A model generated the notes under the pieces. The model was given only the letters and a program-made list of their open reading frames with translations. It was not told where the DNA came from and made no database searches. A stretch of DNA of 64,000 nt, from the NCBI RefSeq assembly GCF_026151205.1, contig NC_087082.1, positions 715,501-779,500 on the forward strand, written 5' to 3'. A program made the translations under genes and the position numbers. This document shows, piece by piece, positions 46,640 to 58,739 of this stretch. Numbering within the stretch: the first letter of the stretch is position 1; every line of letters starts with the position of its first letter. The stretch is from Bolinopsis microptera. Taxonomy: Eukaryota; Ctenophora; Tentaculata; Lobata; Bolinopsidae.

Positions 46640-47820
46640 GATGTCGATTATGGTGTAAAAGAAAAAGAAAAAGAAAAGAAAAAGAAAAAGAAAAAGAAAA
46701 AGAAAAAGAAAAAGAAAAAGAAAAAGAAAAAGAAAAAGAAAAAGAAAAAGAAAAAGAAAAAGAAAAAGAAAATATATTACAGTAAACCTACTACTCACCA
46801 CTGGAGGTTCCTGAGGCTCAACCCGAGCCACGGGTCGGCCACGCCCCTCAGCTATCGCTGGACCTTCTCCTCTTCCTACCTTTCCCCTTATCGGATGATT
46901 CGGACATGTCAGAAATTTGGGAGACTGTACGAAAAGCACAATATTCGATTGCAAATGAACCACCACTCGATTTTAAGTGAACTGAACACTAATTTTTAAG
47001 ACTTGAATTTACTGCCTATGATTGACACAATTATGTCATATGATGCCTTAACATTTTATTCTAGTCCCGTAATTATTTTTCACTTTCTAAAACATACGAA
47101 GCAGTACTGTCTGGAGCTGCTTGATTCAGCTTAAAAAGTCACGTTCAATTATTGCGCTTTTCTCAATAATCGTTCATCAGATTACTGATGAACGATTCCG
47201 TTCTCAGCAATAATTCGATTTTTATACAACTTAATTTTCTTCGCAACCGCGGCTATCAATAAACTTCTAAATCATTGCCAAAAGTCTGTCCTTTGAGGAC
47301 AAACTGCAACAGGTCTGCCAGCGCTTTGTCCTGATGCCAGCCTCTATTGACTTCGAATTTTTCTGCATGTACTCTCTCATATTTTCTATTTGGATTTTGT
47401 TGGATGTTGCAAGTCCCATGGATGTTGATTGCTGAAACTAACCCTAAAGCGACCCCGGCCGCCACATAGGCCCCTACTATCCGTTTTGAGCGCTTATGGG
47501 TGGTATTACAGTGCCCCACCGTCGAATTTAGTATTTTACAAGTGTCGTATGTGAACGTATGTTTTGTGAATAAGATTGCCTGTGTCATTTCTTCATACTT
47601 TGCAATAGTTTTCTCAATATTTTTCAATATGGGAGGCATGGTGAGACGGCACCTGAAACTCTCTACCGATGTATCGAAATCGATTGGATCGACCGTGATG
47701 ACCACGGTCATCAGTTGTAAACTCGGGTGACTAAACACAGTCCCCTTTCGCTCTAGGAGCATTCCCCATTCAGGGATAGTGATTAAATCGATGAAAGCAT
47801 TAGGAGCGTGATTAAAAGTT
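46640..47820. repeat. Duplicated unit beta, left part
   Basis: Starts at the microsatellite (46657-46770), directly followed by exon B (46785-46910; exons C and D deleted), the shared spacer and the 3' part of the envelope-like frame. It stops at AAAGTT (47815-47820), where the poly-G element is inserted, and resumes at 54730. Confidence 0.8.
47256..47820 (-). pseudogene. Envelope-like glycoprotein, unit beta, 3' part (split by transposon)
   Basis: Equivalent to residues about 45-224 of the intact frame at 57879-58553, including the RSKR site and the following hydrophobic stretch. The 5' part lies 6.9 kb away at 54730-54900. It is therefore interrupted and cannot be expressed as one protein without removing the insertion. 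Confidence 0.75.
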
Positions 47821-47892
47821 GGGGGGGGGGGGGGGGGGGGGCCAACCATATTAAAGTATATTAAAATGTAGGATTTTTTCCGATTTTGACCC

Positions 47893-48012
47893 GGGGATAT
47901 ACTTTAATATACTTTAATATACTTTGATATACTTTAATATACTTTAATATACTTTAATATACTTTAATATACGTTAATACACTTTAATACACTTTAATAC
48001 ACTTTAATATAC
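47893..48012. repeat. Sub-terminal 11-bp minisatellite TATACTTTAAT
   Basis: About eleven units of ATATACTTTAAT with variants (CGTTAATACAC). The same motif occurs near the right end (54680-54705), so these are probably sub-terminal binding repeats of the poly-G element. Confidence 0.9.
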
Positions 48013-48614
48013 CTATATCCCGATTTTCAAAATAAAGTTTAATTGAAGCGGCAGTTTGCCTATATTAGTGCGACTAAAGTGACCACATTGATTAAATTAA
48101 TATAATCATAATTCGTGATGGAATCCTGTCTATATGCAAACTTAAGATGATATAATTAATTAAGCCGTACCACTAACAACTATATTATAACTTGAAGCGT
48201 GTAATCTGCCGGTTTTGCAGTACCTCGACATTGAATTTATCTAAGTTCTAACTCCAGACGGAGAAACGGAATTGTCCGAGAACTGCGAACCCTGATGCGG
48301 GACAGGGATATATGGAGGGGTTATCTGGCGTAGATCAGACTTAGTTCAGACATAGTAGTAGTAAATTTTTAAAATGATAAGTCTTCAGTCTCTGCCTACG
48401 GTTTCGGCTTTTCGACTTGCAGTTCAGTAATCACATACAGACGCAATGCTATAAAAAATATCGAATAAAAGCACATAAGATCATATGTATTTTTCAACCA
48501 TTCAATAGATTTACATGTCAAGTTTCGACCCTGAAACGTTATTTCAAAGTCCCCTAAATAACCTTAAAAATACCATCATGCTATTCAAGAATTTTACCAA
48601 TTTCACGATCTTCC

Positions 48615-48836
48615 TCACTCTTCCTCACTCTTAGGTTCCTTGCACTTAAAGCAAGCTGTCCTCCTCGCAAAGTTGTTGCTCAAACACTTCGGGGAGATCC
48701 AGTCTCCTGGAATTTGGTCCAAACTTTCTCCATCAGCTTTAGGGGCCCGACAGTTTGTGCAGATATTCCCACTGCCTCTGTTGTTGGTACGGCATCGCTG
48801 GCATCTCCAGTTCTTGCACTCAATATACTTTGGCAT
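48615..48836 (-). CDS. Small RanBP2-type zinc-finger protein
   Basis: 73 codons, ATG at 48836. First finger complete: NWRCQRCRTNNRGSGNICTN followed by C (C-x2-C-x10-C-x2-C with the diagnostic Trp and Asn). Second finger: DWISPKCLSNNFARRTACFK then C, with Ser in place of its first Cys, so it is probably impaired. An acidic tail follows. RanBP2 fingers bind RNA or ubiquitin-like partners. Its location inside the poly-G element makes it likely cargo, or an exon of an element gene, rather than a host gene. Confidence 0.65.
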   Translation of the reverse strand: MPKYIECKNWRCQRCRTNNRGSGNICTNCRAPKADGESLDQIPGDWISPKCLSNNFARRTACFKCKEPKSEEE

Positions 48837-48972
48837 CCTTCGTATTTTCTAATAAAATACTAAATTGAGGGGTCAAGAAATTGATCACAGAAATCATACG
48901 GATAAATAAGAGCGTGGGGGTAATTTGAAAGGATGTTAATAATTTTGAATGAATAACCGAAACAGTGATGAC

Positions 48973-49515
48973 AAGGAATTTAAATGATTAAAAGATGTTT
49001 GATGTAATAGTATAATAAGTTTGATTAACTATCAAACGTTGTAAAAATTCGTGTCAAAATGCGTAATAATAAATTAGGGAGTAAATATAATTGTGTAAAA
49101 ATCGATCGAAGTCAACATAGTCACTCTATGTTAGTAAAATAATAAGTTAAAAATCGGTCACGGTCAGAAATTCGAAATCTAAAACAAAACAACAGATCAT
49201 TTACAGATAATACACGGTTCTATTCTAACTGGCACGGTAGGAATATAATAAGGAATTTAAATGATTAAAAGATGTTTGATGTAATAGTATAATAAGTTTG
49301 ATTAACTATCAAACGTTGTCAAAATTCGTGTCAAAATGCGTAATAATAAATTAGGGAGTAAATATAATTGTGTAAAAATCGATCAAAGTCAACATAGTCA
49401 TTCTATGTTAGTAAAACAATAAGTTAAAAATCGGTCACGGTCAGAAATTCGAAATCTAAAACAAAACAACAAATCATTAACAGATAATACACGGTTCTAT
49501 TCTAACTGGCACGGT
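48973..49515. repeat. 277-bp tandem duplication inside the poly-G element
   Basis: AAGGAATTTAAATGATTAAA begins at 48973 and again at 49250; the copies differ at only a few positions. Non-coding, downstream of the accessory gene. Recent. Confidence 0.9.
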
Positions 49516-49593
49516 CATTTAATTATTAAACAATTTATCCTAAAACGGATCGATATCATATCATATTTTATTCGTAAAGTATTCATGTAATCC

Positions 49594-50517
49594 TCAGATA
49601 TAGCTATAGGTGATCACATGGGTCGCATCAGATGATTCTCCTTCGCTTAAGTCGATTGACTCATAAGGTCTGGAACTGTCTGTCTCATTGGCACTGGTGT
49701 CGTCTACTGGCTTAGAGGGCACATCAACTACCGTTTCATCTTCGAATACCGCTTCATCATCGACTTCAGGAACAGGCAGGAGACCTCTGCTCGTGTACTC
49801 TTCGACCCTCTTCTCCACTGCTGTGGCGAGTTCTGATGCCACATAGTCCTCGTCCAAGTCTAGTTTATAAACAACTCTTGATATTTGGAATTCAAGGAGA
49901 TTTCTCATTTCGTTCTCTATTGTGGCCTCATACCTAGTCCTCTTCGCAGCATACTCTTTCTCACATTTTATTGTCAGGTACGAGATAAGTTCGTATGAGA
50001 AATTCTGGCGTTCCCTTTTCTGAGCTATGAGCAAATTCAATTTCATCTGCTTTGCCCCTACAGCAGCTGGAGGCTCTTGTAAGTTCTGCTTGAGCATCAC
50101 GTCCCTCACCAAGAGACTCTTGGGCTCGTTACTAAAGGCCGAATTAGCCCTTTTCATGGCTTCCACAATCTCTCTGCTAGGTAACCTGGGGTTACTTTGT
50201 TGTTTAAATACAGAACTTACCATACCTGGGCGGCAAGATTGCTCCTTGCAACCAAACTGAAGCAATAGTTTCTGAAAATCATGCTATGTAATTGATCGTT
50301 CGTTCCTCAATGTATTAGCATTGCGAATATTCTCAATAAAAGTGGCTTTTGAAGCCAGGAATTGAACTTTCTCCATAGCAGAGACGTTCTTTCTTCCAAC
50401 TTTTGTTTTCTTACTTAATCCACTGGATGCTCTCGAGGTTTCCGCAGAAAACCCCGTCCTCTTCGGCTTCACTGATGATGATCTTGTTGCTGACATTGCA
50501 TTGTCGAAGGTAGACAT
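49594..50517 (-). CDS. Poly-G element accessory protein, one in-frame TAG
   Basis: 308 codons from an ATG at 50517, with a single in-frame TAG at 50284-50286. Reading on, the frame stays open to 49594. The N-terminus is Ser/Lys-rich (KPKRTGFSAETSRASSGLSK). The middle is strongly helical and charged (LIAQKRERQNFSYELISYL, YEATIENEMRNLLEFQISRV). The C-terminus is acidic (DDEAVFEDETVVDVP, SEGESSDATHV). No catalytic motif. It could be a structural or DNA-binding partner of the transposase. The TAG is either a lesion or hidden by splicing (CATGATTTTCAG follows it). Confidence 0.6.
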
Positions 50518-50791
50518 CCTGAATTTAAAAACTGAATTAAATAAGTATCAAATGAAGAGTGGGGGGGGGGGGGTGTCCATCCCAATTTTTTCAATTAAGG
50601 TTAACATGAATTAGTAATACACACTAAGTCAGCAGTAAACAAAATCAATCAAAACACATCGATAGTTTATTGAATAATGAGATGTCTACAATAAGAGTTT
50701 CGCCTGTTTGAGCTATACTTTTTTTTAAATGCAGCTCGACATCAGTATCCACAAGACTTTTAAAAGAATAGTTATGATATTAATATATTTC

Positions 50792-51625
50792 TCAAATCCG
50801 CATCTCAGTTGATTTGAATAGCTCTCCTGTAGTTTGCGTCTTGCAGTACATAGTTAGAGCTTTGTGAACTCTGCAGCCTCGTTTAAGAGGCTGGTAGTTC
50901 ACTGAACTCCTTGAGGGAGATGAAGAGTCATTATTTGCTGCAGCAATGAATAGTATAGTCCCCTCTTTAACAACCTTCCGTTTTCTTTTAGTCTTAGTTT
51001 TCTCCATCACAACGAACGAACCAGTAAATCCAATAGAGATAATGTGGCAGTCTGTTGTATCACCCTGACACTCCGCTATGAGTGACAACTTATCTGAGGA
51101 GACAACTGTAAATCGCCTAACTCTTGTTTGGGATGACATGGACGTCCTGCCGTCATTGCAGTATTTCGCAACTGCATACTGCAAGTGGTATTTTTTATCG
51201 TTCCCAAACTTCATTAGACCTTCGTCTTCGTCATCTTCCATTGTATCGAAAGATTCGACTTCAATCTCGTCCTCAGATACATGCTCCCTGTCCGATTCAT
51301 CTCCCTCTGAGTCATCTTCCTCATCTTCCTCATCTGAGGAGAAAGCCTTAGTGTTCTTTGAAAAAGAAGAGTTCTTGTTAAATTTTTCTTCTCCGATCTT
51401 CATTCCTTTCTTCATTTCCTCCTTCAGCTCAATGAGGGATGTGTCTTTACCCTTGTAGATGGCTTCATCTTGCCTAATTTTTAAAAGTTGCCTGCCTCTA
51501 GTATGAGCAACTGAGTGCTCAAGAAGATGCAAATTGTCCCCATCAATACTTAGTGACAGGTTTCGTTTGCCACAACCTTTTAAAATGTTGCAGGCATCCA
51601 GGTTTGTTTTGCGGCCAGCATGCAT
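50792..51625 (-). CDS. Putative transposase, third coding block
   Basis: Follows an acceptor (TTACGCACAG) near 51628. Begins HAGRKTNLDACNILKGCGK and then DGDNLHLLEHSVAHTRGRQL, a Leu-Glu-His ... Thr-Arg-Gly-Arg pattern where DDE transposases of P-like type carry the last acidic residue. A very acidic stretch (residues about 95-135) and a basic KTKTKRKRKVVKEG region follow. The C-terminal part has no recognised motif. Which upstream donor joins it is not resolved, so it could be a separate protein. Confidence 0.5.
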   Translation of the reverse strand: MHAGRKTNLDACNILKGCGKRNLSLSIDGDNLHLLEHSVAHTRGRQLLKIRQDEAIYKGKDTSLIELKEEMKKGMKIGEEKFNKNSSFSKNTKAFSSDEEDEEDDSEGDESDREHVSEDEIEVESFDTMEDDEDEGLMKFGNDKKYHLQYAVAKYCNDGRTSMSSQTRVRRFTVVSSDKLSLIAECQGDTTDCHIISIGFTGSFVVMEKTKTKRKRKVVKEGTILFIAAANNDSSSPSRSSVNYQPLKRGCRVHKALTMYCKTQTTGELFKSTEMRI

Positions 51626-51736
51626 ACCTGTGCGTAATCACGCGAAAAGTTGTTCTAACGAATCAGACGTCAAGAACCAAGTAACAATATCGCACTCTGG
51701 AATCTGGATACTTGGACACCACAGTTACCACGTACC

Positions 51737-54070
51737 ATATCAGTCCATCAACACAGGCAAGAAAGTCGTCATAAGACTGACTTGTAATGAAAAACTTTCC
51801 AAGACATCTCATTCGTGCGATCTCCTCACGCCATTTGATCATTATGGCCTTGCTCATTGAAGCATACAAGAGACGCTCAGCAGGCTTTAGAGTCTTGTCA
51901 TAATATGCACAGAAGATAAGGTATCCCAACTCCAAAAACAGTCCCATTCCGGTGTAGCCGGCTTCATAAAAATGTGGATACAGCAGCAACAGTTCAGTAG
52001 CTAAACTTGGGTCTTGCTTATCTTTCACAGCTACAGCGGATTTAGAGATCGCATCTCTACAGTTCTCGTTTTCGTGCCACAAATGAACTACACACTCCCA
52101 CCTGGCACACCACTTCAGTCTGTTTGTCAATGTTAGGTTCGCAGGAGTTGTAAAGAGGAGTAGCCTTGTCGATAGGTACTTGCTGTTGTTTCTGAGCTTT
52201 TTCAGCACGTGCAATGCATCTGAGCAGGGGAAATCTGAACCACCAGAGAAATTAAGACCAAATTGTATCGGATAATCCAAATTTTCTAGCCAAACAAAGC
52301 TGTGTGGGACTTTGGTGTAAACAATCTTTTGAAACTTTCTCATCCTGGGGTCCCCATCACCTGCGAAGGCTAAAATTTCAATACCAACGTCTAAGCAGGC
52401 TTTTTTCATCGTATGAAAAAGTTCAGACATGTCATCTGCATTCATTAGTTTCCCTAACGGAAATGAACAAACTGCATAGTAGATAGACTTTCTACATAGT
52501 GGAACTATGTTAACCACCCCTATCTGGCCACAAGCATTCAGTTGCCCACTTTGTTTACATAATTTTACAGATTCCAGTCCGTTAACAACCCCATCACTGT
52601 TAATCAAGATATCAGCCGGTTCCTGTCTCTGTAGTCTTATTTTCACGGGAGAGATCCACTTGTGATCAACTCCGGTTGCAAGATACTCGCCATTAGCCTT
52701 GATTACTCCTATTCGCCCCGAAGCAGCAGTAGCATCGACGGCTAGGAAATAAGGTATCTTCTTCGGATCACTTACGCCAGCTTTGGATCCAACTATCCCT
52801 AGAGTTGAAAGAGTTAGTTAAGTTTATGGGATTGGTAAGGGAGCATTCACATATGAATCCTCAAACACAACTGGAGCGGGGGGGGGGGGGGGGTGGAAGC
52901 CGAAGGGAATTTTGTGGAATTATGTATGACTAAATTATGGGGGTTTTCTAAAATACTCCAAAATCCATTCAGGTATTCCCCAAAATTCCCCTTGGCTTCC
53001 CCACCCCCCCTCCTTCAAGTGCTATGACTGATATAATTTAGTAATATTTTAAAATGTATTAGTACTGTATTATCAGAATTGCTGAACTCTAAACTAAAAA
53101 TGTAGGGTATTCATAAATAATCATTAATTAGCAATGTTGTACTTACTCAAAACTTCTTGAAGGTGCTGCTTAAAATTGCTTGCTTTGAAATAAGGTAAAA
53201 CAGGTATGGTTGGTAGACAATTCAACTTCATAGTAGAGTGTGCTGGACCCCCAACCAAATCCGATACATCTTTACCGGCAGCAGCACTGTGCTTGAGGTA
53301 AAGTTTTTGGATGGTAGCTTTTAGAACATTATGGTGGGTCCTTCTATTGACATCACCATGATCACAAACGCCCCGGTTCAACTTGTTCTTGATGGCGATG
53401 GTGACAAATGGTAGGCTTTTGAGCGAATCGAAGACTTCATAGCTGCAACTTAACAAGTCGACCTCGAAAACAGAACTTAGTTTATGAACAACTTCGCAAG
53501 CTTTGTAGTGATCAGATTCTTCGCAGGCTGGTTTAACCTTAGGTAGGTCTTCAATATCGTTTGCTAATGTTGAGATATATTTGTTGGTTTTATCGTGAGA
53601 TTGAAGGAGATCAAATCCTAGCGAATCACTAAGACGTTTCAAAATACCAATTGCATGTTCCTCTTCACATGTTTCTTTTTCTCCAATGCATGATTCTTCT
53701 TCGGTATTTGAAAGATCGGTTGACTGCAAAAAAAATCAGTCTCGTCAGATTGATTGTTTTCGGACGCTAAAATTTTGTTGCTGCTCGGTGGCAACACTGT
53801 TGGTGATAAAGTTCTGTTTGGTATAGTGTATTTGATATTATACTCTTTTCCACTAACAATCAAGCGCCATTTACAGTTGTCAACATGACTTGGCGAACTG
53901 AAATGCATCGTAAATGCTTCTACAAAGTCATTCCTTTTCAGTTTTAATTGATAGTTACAGTTACTACATTTTATTAAACTATCGTTAATTGAACAGCCAC
54001 TCTGAAGCCCCATCTTACGCACCATACTAAGCAGTTGCTCTTTCTTGGATTTCAACTTTTTTGGAGGCAT
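51737..54070 (-). CDS. Putative DDE transposase of the poly-G element (exons 1-2)
   Basis: Exon 1 (54070-53147) starts MPPKKLKSKKEQLL and has a zinc finger of BED/C2H2-like spacing, CSNCNYQLKLKRNDF ... MHFSSPSH. An 8-T run near 53735 shifts the frame by one base (lesion or sequencing error). It ends at donor TTGA|GTAAGT. The intron 53146-52799 (348 bp) contains a G-rich MITE. Exon 2 starts at 52798: PYFLAVDATAASGRIGVI (candidate first Asp), EILAFAGDGDPRMRKFQKI (second acidic site) and CSDALHVLKKLRNNSKYL (Asp-x-x-His-x-x-Lys-x-x-Arg-Asn, as in P-like transposases). Exon 2 ends at a GT donor near 51736. The catalytic assignment is inference from motif shape. It is the only nuclease candidate in the element. 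Confidence 0.6.
52873..53013. mobile_element. G-run-ended MITE nested in the transposase intron
   Basis: About 140 bp. The left end GGAGC plus a G16 run and TGGAAGCC is matched by the inverted right end GGCTTCCCCACCCCCCCTCC. AATTTTGTGGAAT and ATTCCCCAAAATT continue the pairing. It shares the poly-G end style with its host element but not its inner TIR. No clean duplication found. Confidence 0.55.
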
Positions 54071-54729
54071 CCTGATTATTGCGGGTTAAATAAAATGAAT
54101 CTTTAAATAATAAGTTGAAATTAGAATGAAAGTGTACAAATCTGAATTGAAACAGTTAAGTAACGTCATGTTGTCAAATTTGATAGAAAGTTAGAGTTCA
54201 GAATAAAACAAATATTCAGAATAAAACAAATATTATATTCAAATCTCTTTATTCAACAATATTAAATCATTATAGAACCTAATTTGTGGCTTGATCGTTC
54301 GAGATGGGAGATCAAGCAATTTATACAAATAATGAGAATAATCCAATTCGATAATAAATAGTTCAATTTGGAGATCAAACAATAAATTAAATAATGACAG
54401 TAATCTAATTTGAATATTAAATATCAAATTCGGAAATCAAAAAATTGATAATACGGTTTCTTGTTTAATATGGTTTCCTGTAACAAGATTATGCATCTCA
54501 ATTAAATAAATCACATCTTTAGACATTTGTGTGTCCTCGAATTATAAGTAATACCTTTGAATTGATTGCCTTTAGCTAAAACGGGCTAATACTGTCAATC
54601 TAAACGAAGAATATAAATTCAATAATTGTAATATTAAAGTATATTAAAATGTGGGATTTTTTCCGATTTTGACCCGGGGATATACTTTAATATACTTTAA
54701 TATGGTTGCCCCCCCAACCCCCCCCCCCC

Positions 54730-54860
54730 AAAGTTACCGGCCTCGAGGAACTGTTATGGTTTTCAAGTGTCCTAGTCAGTGTCACATTTGCTTTGTCATA
54801 ATTTGGGTCTCCGACGGCGACTGCCGTCCAAAATACTAGTTGCCAAATCCACATGTGCTT
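54730..54860 (-). pseudogene. Envelope-like glycoprotein, unit beta, 5' part
   Basis: Encodes the signal-peptide region (MWIWQLVFWTAVAVG) and following residues through the site of the transposon insertion. Together with 47256-47820 it is one frame split by the poly-G element. Confidence 0.75.
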
Positions 54861-57293: not shown

Positions 57294-57363
57294 CAATGTA
57301 ATCGATCAACAATCTATAAAGCACAACAAAATAACATTTATGTAATTAAAATAAACCTACTAC

Positions 57364-57576
57364 TCACCACTGGAGGTTCCTGAGGCTCAACCCGAGCCAC
57401 GGGTCGGCCACGCCTCTCAGCATCTTCAAATCTTCGCTATCGCTGGACCTTCTCCTCTTCCTTCCTTTCCCCTTATCGGGTGATCCGGACATGTCAGAAA
57501 TTTGGGAGACTGTACGAAAAGCACAATATTCGATTGAAAATGAACCACCCGACTCGATTTCAAGTGAACTGAACAC
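57364..57576 (-). CDS. Cluster exon B, basic exon (unit gamma)
   Basis: Starts in frame with MSGSPDKGKGRKRRRSSDSE, a nuclear-localisation-like basic run, and ends at CTCCAGTG|GTGAGT. The residues upstream of that Met are not conserved in frame. An 8-base insertion relative to unit alpha changes the final frame (DLKMLRGVADPWLGL instead of PVARVEPQEPPV). Confidence 0.45.
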   Translation of the reverse strand: MFSSLEIESGGSFSIEYCAFRTVSQISDMSGSPDKGKGRKRRRSSDSEDLKMLRGVADPWLGLSLRNLQW

Positions 57577-57878
57577 TAATTTTTAAGACTTGAATTTACT
57601 GCCTATGATTGACAGTTAAACCGATAATTTCACAGTTCCAACATCGAATATATAAAATTTTACAATTATGTCATATGATGCCTTAACATTTTATTCTAGT
57701 CCCGTAATTATTTTTCACTTTTTAAAACATACGAAGCAGTACTGTCTGGAGCTGCTTGATTCAGCTTAAAAAGTCACGTTCAATTATCGCGCTTTTCTCA
57801 GTAATCGTTCATCAGGCATTCCGTTCTCAGCAATAATTCGACTTTTATACAACATCATTTTCTTCGCAACCGCGGCTA

Positions 57879-58553
57879 TCAATCAACTTCTAAATCATTG
57901 CCAAAGGTCTGTCCTTTGAGGACAAACTGCAACAGGTCTGCCAGCGCTTTGTCCTGATGCCAGCCTCTATTGACTTCGAATTTTTCTGTATATACTCCCG
58001 CATATTTTCTATTTGGATTTTGTTGGATGTTGCAAGTCCCATGGATGTTGATTGCTGAAGCTAACCCTAAAGCGGCCCCGGCCGCCACATAGGCCCCTAC
58101 TATCCGTTTTGAGCGCTTATGGGTGGTATTACAGTGCCCCACCGTCGAATTTAGTATTTTACAAGTGTCATATGTGAACGTATGTTTTGTGAATAAGATT
58201 GCCTGTGTCATTTCTTCATACTTTGCAATAGTTTTCTCAATATTTTCCAATATGGGAGTCCTGGTGAGACGGCACCTGAAACTCTCCACCGATGTATCGA
58301 AATAGATTGGGTCGACCGTGATGACCACTGTCATCAGTTGTAAACTCGGGTGACTAAACACAGTCCCCTTTCGCTCTAGGAGCATTCCCCTTTCAGGGAT
58401 AGCGACTAAAGCATTAGGAGCGTGATTAAAGGTTACCGGCCTCGAGGAACTGTTATGGTTTTCAAGTGTCCTAGTCAGTGTCACATTTGCTTTGTCATAA
58501 TTTGGGTCTCCGACGGCGACTGCCGTCCAAAATACTAGTTGCCAAATCCACAT
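57879..58553 (-). CDS. Envelope-like glycoprotein, apparently intact short frame
   Basis: 224 codons from the ATG at 58553. A signal peptide (residues 1-15) is followed by an ectodomain with several N-glycosylation sequons. A furin-type site RSKR lies at about 147-150, directly followed by a Gly/Ala-rich hydrophobic stretch reminiscent of a fusion peptide. No transmembrane anchor is encoded before the stop, so the protein is truncated or continues by splicing. The layout is that of class I-type envelope or F-like proteins acquired by retroelements, but no family can be named. The beta copy is broken by a transposon; alpha keeps only the last codons. Confidence 0.6.
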   Translation of the reverse strand: MWIWQLVFWTAVAVGDPNYDKANVTLTRTLENHNSSSRPVTFNHAPNALVAIPERGMLLERKGTVFSHPSLQLMTVVITVDPIYFDTSVESFRCRLTRTPILENIEKTIAKYEEMTQAILFTKHTFTYDTCKILNSTVGHCNTTHKRSKRIVGAYVAAGAALGLASAINIHGTCNIQQNPNRKYAGVYTEKFEVNRGWHQDKALADLLQFVLKGQTFGNDLEVD

Positions 58554-58739
58554 GTGCTTACCTTTGTATTTGGAGAGTGAGAGGTTCCGCTGGTGGTTTA
58601 TGTCATGGACACTAAGTAAATGATAAGTTTGAACTTAAGGTTGAATTTAAAGTGAATTTAAAGTGAAACCAGTACACATGTGTATAAAAAAACTTAAATA
58701 TGGTAAACGTTTATAAAATGAGTACAAAATAATAAATTC

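Follow-up and report, generated by a model that had tools for sequence, protein, structure and literature searches.

The 64,000-nucleotide stretch of Bolinopsis microptera DNA analysed here (the window; NC_087082.1, positions 715,501 to 779,500) contains, at 47821-54729, a segment with long runs of G or C at its two ends, and the locus raises the question of whether this segment is a DNA transposon and, if so, of what kind. The ends, the target site duplications (TSDs), and the empty sites identify it as a real DNA transposon. We consider it best explained as a decayed, formerly autonomous element of the cut-and-paste type, a reading that we hold to be probable when taken as a whole. Its family, which we call T1, also appears likely to form a distinct lineage, with a transposase that resembles the P-element transposase most, though only very distantly; the profile comparison behind this covered P, Hermes, Mos1, and Tn5.

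The element is flanked by perfect AAAGTT duplications, which can be read directly, and its left end is a run of 21 G followed by CCAACCATATTAAAGTATATT. A paralogous unit within the window matches the left flank through 47820 (57345-58434) and the right flank from 54730 (58429-58661), and the two matches overlap by exactly the 6-bp target. A second empty paralogue, in L017 at a distance of about 140 kb (8928-8609 and 8614-8356), again gives a 6-bp overlap, as is expected at both empty sites from the TSD. The original prediction, made from the window sequence alone, had named the duplications, the empty site in the window, an inverted repeat behind the ends, and subterminal arrays, and each of these was found: the arms of the terminal inverted repeat (TIR), 47816-47870 and 54681-54735, are 87% complementary over 55 nt, and a decamer array with 94% matches lies just inside the left end. 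Of the predicted G21 and C9 termini the former stands, whereas the right end consists of two C runs of 7 and 12 (54709-54715 and 54718-54729) separated by AA. The features of the locus, with the basis of each and with ORF standing for open reading frame, are as follows.

47815-47820: left TSD, AAAGTT (read directly; empty-site paralogues)
47821-47841, plus strand: left terminal G21 run, an end feature common to the family (read directly)
47842-47895, plus strand: core of the left TIR, beginning CCAACCATATTAAAGTATATTAAAATGTAGG (sequence reading, arm comparison)
47897-48012, plus strand: subterminal array of the decamer ATATACTTTA, 11.6 copies (repeat scan)
48615-48836, minus strand: gene 3, whose small product matches a RanBP2-type zinc finger (ORF and Pfam)
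48973-49515: internal 277-bp tandem duplication, 2.0 copies, 97% alike (repeat scan)
49594-50517, minus strand: gene 2, about 300 aa, with an in-frame TAG near 50284 (ORF list)
50792-52798, minus strand: putative transposase exon 2, with the D1, D2, DxxH..KK.RN, and E motifs (ORFs, alignments)
51650-51667, minus strand: SDSLEQ stretch with the candidate catalytic E (alignment with relatives)
52218-52220, minus strand: D of DALHVLKKLRN, the DxxH motif (derived by hand from ORF position 200)
52356-52358, minus strand: D2, the first D of GDGD (derived by hand from ORF position 154)
52734-52736, minus strand: D1, in AVDATA (derived by hand from ORF position 28)
52799-53146, minus strand: predicted intron with GTAAGT donor and TCTAG acceptor (sequence only)
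52878-53013: inverted repeat resembling a miniature inverted-repeat transposable element (MITE), inserted in the intron, with poly-G/poly-C arms (read directly, arm comparison)
53147-54070, minus strand: putative transposase exon 1, with a zinc-finger-like N-terminus and GGP..ST.K (ORF list, splice reading)
54631-54708, minus strand: core of the right TIR and subterminal repeats (sequence reading, arm comparison)
54709-54729: right terminal C run, C7-AA-C12 (read directly)
54730-54735: right TSD, AAAGTT (read directly)
58429-58434: empty site in the paralogous unit, single target (flank alignment)

We searched the genome (264.65 Mb in 232 contigs) with the ends of the element, a check that the original prediction had proposed. 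With the first 1 kb of the element as query, 40 of 1119 candidates were scored and yielded 117 matches. A 32-nt pattern from the end, made up of 8 G and 24 bp of TIR, had 229 exact matches (103 + 126), while its reversed form did not occur. From 100 listed places among these 229 matches we took 29 facing pairs, leaving out at least one short facing pair (C2:16545534-16545634). The T1 count rests on 58 sources, with repeated flanks collapsed; four left ends (L013, L014, L033, L034) had no detected partner, and sources holding a right end only stay silent in this count. Among 45 paired copies, the flush TSD measured 6 bp in 28, 7 bp in five, 5 bp in five, and 4, 3, and 1 bp in one each, with none in four, and in a swapped-flank control a 6-bp flush repeat appeared in 1.25%. 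The window copy is one of the four scored as having none, an effect of the AA interruption in its C run; its AAAGTT is seen by eye. The 6-bp targets have the palindromic consensus AAWWTT (29 sites), and 38 of the 45 copies are only 590-811 bp long. T1 bodies are nearly identical to one another (median 97.6%, closest pairs 99.7%, over the 345 pairs that align above 90% of 630 possible among 36 bodies), so the family has probably moved recently.

Two related families, T2 and T3, were also measured. T3 has paired ends 3.3-10.2 kb apart that read G7-32 TCCAACTACAAA, and its 21 measured copies (42 of 47 end matches) carry flush TSDs of 6 bp (12 copies), 7 bp (six), and 5 bp (three). T2 has ends of the form G4-6 T(A/G)ATGCAACGACC, 1.8-4.0 kb and usually 2.1 kb apart; its 13 copies, measured from 33 end matches with a pair in L055 left out, have flush TSDs of 8 bp in nine cases and 7 bp in four (8 if one base of the run is counted in). 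The predicted 6-bp duplication is thus the majority length but not a strict one, given the flush 7-bp repeats in T1 and T3 and the 8 bp of T2. In a transposase tree rooted only at its midpoint, T1, T3, L037, P0004, P0006, and P0009 group together (99/99), T2 falls outside, and L042, P0008, and P0010-P0013 lie further out; L037 is a single element that has TTATTT repeats and ends of G32/C14. In this sample, one clade combines long G ends with short TSDs. Three protein searches, the third of which was restricted to scoring the 7998 candidates with the most words in common, returned 9, 3, and 6 homologues, none of them named and none with a precomputed Pfam domain. In viral contigs the T1 end pattern had 0 matches, and no relatives of P0001 or P0011 were found there.

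The poly-G runs are themselves variable. In the 45 paired T1 copies they are 8-39 long, with 10 (15 ends) and 9 (13 ends) the commonest lengths and a run of 7 solely at the right end of the window copy, where AA interrupts it; T3 runs are 7-32 long, most often 8, and the 4-6 G of T2 show no expansion in 13 copies. Because a TSD adjoins the runs in dozens of copies, we take them as true element ends and not as a one-off artefact, while their exact lengths could carry sequencing error. That the runs or the entire structure are products of assembly we regard as very improbable: homopolymers are prone to error and L019 includes a messy low-complexity stretch, but TSDs adjoin runs in dozens of unlinked copies from more than one family, and on this evidence the explanation was rejected. 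Copies of one insertion produced by later duplication have runs of unequal length (30 vs 23 in L036; 38 vs 21 in L090/L091, where the right side alone is common and the left flanks differ; C7AAC12 vs G17 in the window and L017), so, leaving sequencing error out of account, at least some of the spread postdates insertion. We suggest that a functional end of about 8-10 G would sit at the threshold of homopolymer slippage, which would then lengthen the run. The ends could instead be remade at every transposition, through a slip of the cleavage register in the C-ended transferred strand or through untemplated addition, and this would suit both the near absence of correlation between left and right lengths in T1 (r 0.13) and the wide variation among copies that are about 99% alike. 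The change seen between duplicated insertions, the clustering of lengths at 8-10, and the lack of spread in T2 argue for later slippage, and we consider remaking unlikely. A literature search, judged by titles and the starts of abstracts and with Repbase outside its scope, found no description of poly-G-ended transposons.

Three minus-strand genes can be read in the element, as predicted, but the frames of the transposase and of gene 2 are interrupted. The two putative transposase exons (54070-53147 and 52798-50792) would be separated by an intron whose predicted splice sites are canonical GT/AG and of compatible phase, and both halves lie in a single reading frame in L042, P0011, and P0013, in support of one gene. 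Its landmarks follow in the order finger C-x2-C...H-x5-H-x3-C-x-W, GGP..ST.K, D (DATA), D (GDGD), DxxH..KK.RN, DKQDPSLATEL, and SDxxEQxFA..R; by motif reading, the full order D, D, DxxH, E is found in L042 and P0011 and a partial one in the window and others. The claim that the element is self-contained is not supported for this copy. Exon 1 loses frame in the T run at 53724-53741 (relative to L017), exon 2 loses frame near 51689-51713 (relative to P0001) and has a TGA stop at 51632-51646, and the TAG interrupts gene 2. A second, partial T1 copy, in L017, keeps an exon 1 that is itself broken, and its match ends in the intron. The window holds the sole T1 catalytic exon among the matches found (92-94% to P0001, with the next best match at 36%). 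From these lesions we read the window copy as a decayed, broken transposon. T1 may be without an active source in the assembly, although an unassembled or other-haplotype copy could still provide one.

The transposase had no credible sequence match in Pfam, NCBIfam, or PDB, in agreement with the original prediction, which recognised no superfamily for the element. PDB profile searches returned only weak, unrelated matches (best E 0.033 and 2.5). Matches to Ost5 (E 0.006, on the exon-2 tail) and, for one relative, to a model of the Mu Gam type (E 0.015) were far below cut-off and were taken as chance. A single query with the catalytic region of P matched nothing in the genome, and without a positive control we draw no conclusion from this. 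By its signature the protein belongs to the [C/D]xxH class (PMC10045372, PMC3706591; PMC4455052 was also consulted). Within this class, the order D, D, D(2)H, E and the KxxRN after DxxH are as in the P superfamily (Drosophila P, Galileo, THAP9), in which the DDE triad has a D(2)H signature, and the DxxH-to-E spacing is 177-186 here against 192 in P by residue numbers (PMC8230255). The catalytic region of P, aligned globally over 303 columns with profile A3, scored 16.7, a value that none of 150 shuffles reached (mean 2.9, max 12.6) and that compares with 2.6 for reversed P; the local score was 26.5. Hermes (1.2 global, 16.4 local), Mos1 (5.1, 15.7), and Tn5 (7.5, 16.1) all remained within the shuffle range. 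The global alignment with P pairs the landmarks SDTPHLIKLVRN, AKQKVKLATQL, and LDGLYKYL..IL...L.QD..EHFFGSMRSRGG, and matches the blocks DxxH..K..RN, KQ...LATxL, and DGL..YL...D..E..F...R. The central landmark KQ...LATxL is where the region of the P GTP-binding insertion aligns; by eye, of the residues that contact GTP in P (PMC7776569), the D three before E (D528 in P) is kept and K400 is not. These motifs and the alignment fit the "distant P-like or new DDE lineage" of the original prediction, and they make the P affinity suggestive without amounting to proof.

Several results weigh against this placement or against the transposon reading as a whole. One of the 150 shuffles scored higher than P locally (26.7), reversed controls reached 19.0 locally, and reversed Tn5 and Hermes scored 8.1 and 7.8 globally. 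The HH probability for the P match is 2-4%, the affinity is based on a single P reference sequence, the forced global alignment leaves the first D of P off the DATA motif, and the D1-D2 spacing is 126-137 here vs 73 in P. The Pfam models PF21787-PF21789 (TNP-like RNase H / GBD) all match the P control but went unmatched in the scanned window ORFs and in relatives (E up to 1 or 5). As for the insertions, 12 of the 45 T1 copies have no flush 6- or 7-bp TSD as scored, and the older copies L028 and L029, which failed the run rule through interruptions beside the core and stand outside the 45, showed no TSD. No THAP domain was matched in the window exon 1 ORF, L042, P0011, or P0013, where a C2-H2-C-type finger is seen by eye instead, and the 7-8-bp TSD of the P superfamily is the rule in T2 but occurs in a minority of T1 and T3 copies. 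Since the THAP and P Pfam matches are lacking and the TSDs are mostly 6 bp, we do not file T1 as a P element. P-element ends also differ from the G-run ends described here.

The missing THAP and P Pfam matches, together with the unusual ends and TSD, would suit a superfamily of its own within the DDE/[C/D]xxH class, one roughly equidistant from P, Kolobok, MuDR, Dada, and hAT, in which the likeness to P reflects class ancestry alone. We give this possibility somewhat less than an even chance; it overlaps with the P-like placement except on P affinity, and the two are not mutually exclusive. What tells against it is that P stands out from the shuffles, Hermes, Mos1, and Tn5, with matches that extend beyond DxxH, and that the T2 TSD is 8 bp, as in P (PMC7776569). 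The other named groups fit less well. Dada shares the DxxH class and TSDs of 6-7 bp, but it inserts into small RNA genes, and TIRs are lacking in the members described (PMC3706591), whereas T1 has TIRs and AT-rich AAWWTT targets; no search for RNA genes at the insertions was made. Kolobok also has the DxxH class and RR..YY termini (PMC9587614), with a TSD of TTAA (4 bp, classical) or 3-5 bp (KolobokP) against 6-8 bp in T1-T3. hAT was rejected, as the Hermes control scored at shuffle level and no hAT Pfam model matched, even though the [C/D]xxH class is shared. An RW pair after the motif is a hAT feature that the transposase here also has. A Polinton, IS3EU, or other integrase-type element is in our judgement hardly credible: the TSD of Polinton is 6 bp (PMC10045372), and that of IS3EU is so by statement of the original prediction alone, but T2 has 8 bp and no integrase, polymerase, or capsid match was found in 7 of 40 listed ORFs of the degraded copy or in the transposase relatives, and on the ORFs scanned this origin was rejected. 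The list of 6-bp groups that the original prediction used to discriminate is weak in any case, given the 6-7 bp of Dada and the 7-8 bp of Galileo, a member of the P superfamily (PMC3706591, PMC4168063).

On the P-like placement, the T1 enzyme most likely works like the P element. We propose that the N-terminal zinc finger would bind the subterminal decamer arrays, that an RNase-H-type core would cleave each end at the outer border of its G run, and that the freed ends would be joined, with a stagger of 6 bp, to AT-rich targets (AAWWTT); short copies would be moved in trans. In the P element, the terminal base is contacted by GTP (PMC7776569). Here the transferred strand has a C run at its 3' end, and on a speculative view, if the P-like central domain still binds GTP, the last C of that run could form a pair with the guanine. 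A further extension, which we think improbable, is a separate superfamily with the homopolymer-G end as its hallmark, in which the run serves as a tolerant docking register and the step from 5 G with an 8-bp TSD (T2) to 8-10 G with 6 bp (T1, T3) is one linked change in end geometry. If the P-like placement is right, the element adds a deep and so far unnamed lineage close to the P elements, to which human THAP9 is related; several of its families, with near-identical copies, occur in a single genome. The series from T2 to T1 and T3 offers a natural way to ask how P-like enzymes set end sequence and stagger. Because transposases of this kind currently receive no label from Pfam, they would go unseen in annotation that depends on it.

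Further observations concern the relatives and the surroundings of the element. L042:448-2745 is an intact 766-aa single-frame relative for which convincing TIRs were not found in 4.2 kb; it may be a domesticated transposase, or else its ends may have escaped detection. The first two D motifs are absent from the 521-aa frame of T2 in the copies checked (L047 and L049), and the frame is free of internal stops in six of the seven copies L046-L052, perhaps being kept for a repressor-like or binding function. In the T3 copies L040 and L133, long repeat arrays in the transposase gene region read as Ser/Pro/Leu-rich frames. The L017 match ends at the small poly-G/poly-C inverted repeat in the intron (about 3618-3751 in L017), which may be another poly-G MITE. 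The genome search with the longer part of gene 2 (229 aa) turned up neither another copy nor a relative. Gene 3 has two RanBP2-like finger motifs by eye, one of which is matched by the Pfam RanBP2-type model just below its cut-off (E 2.9e-6, 26.9 bits against 27.0). Fingers of this type often bind G-containing single strands, and their presence beside poly-G ends is intriguing. The flanks of the element belong to a tandemly repeated unit (repeats around 44-62 kb of the window) with an envelope-like ORF (47256-47903, minus strand) in which a basic cleavage-like site precedes a hydrophobic stretch, by eye; this unit is perhaps an old endogenous provirus, and similar units lie about 135-140 kb away in L017 and L018.

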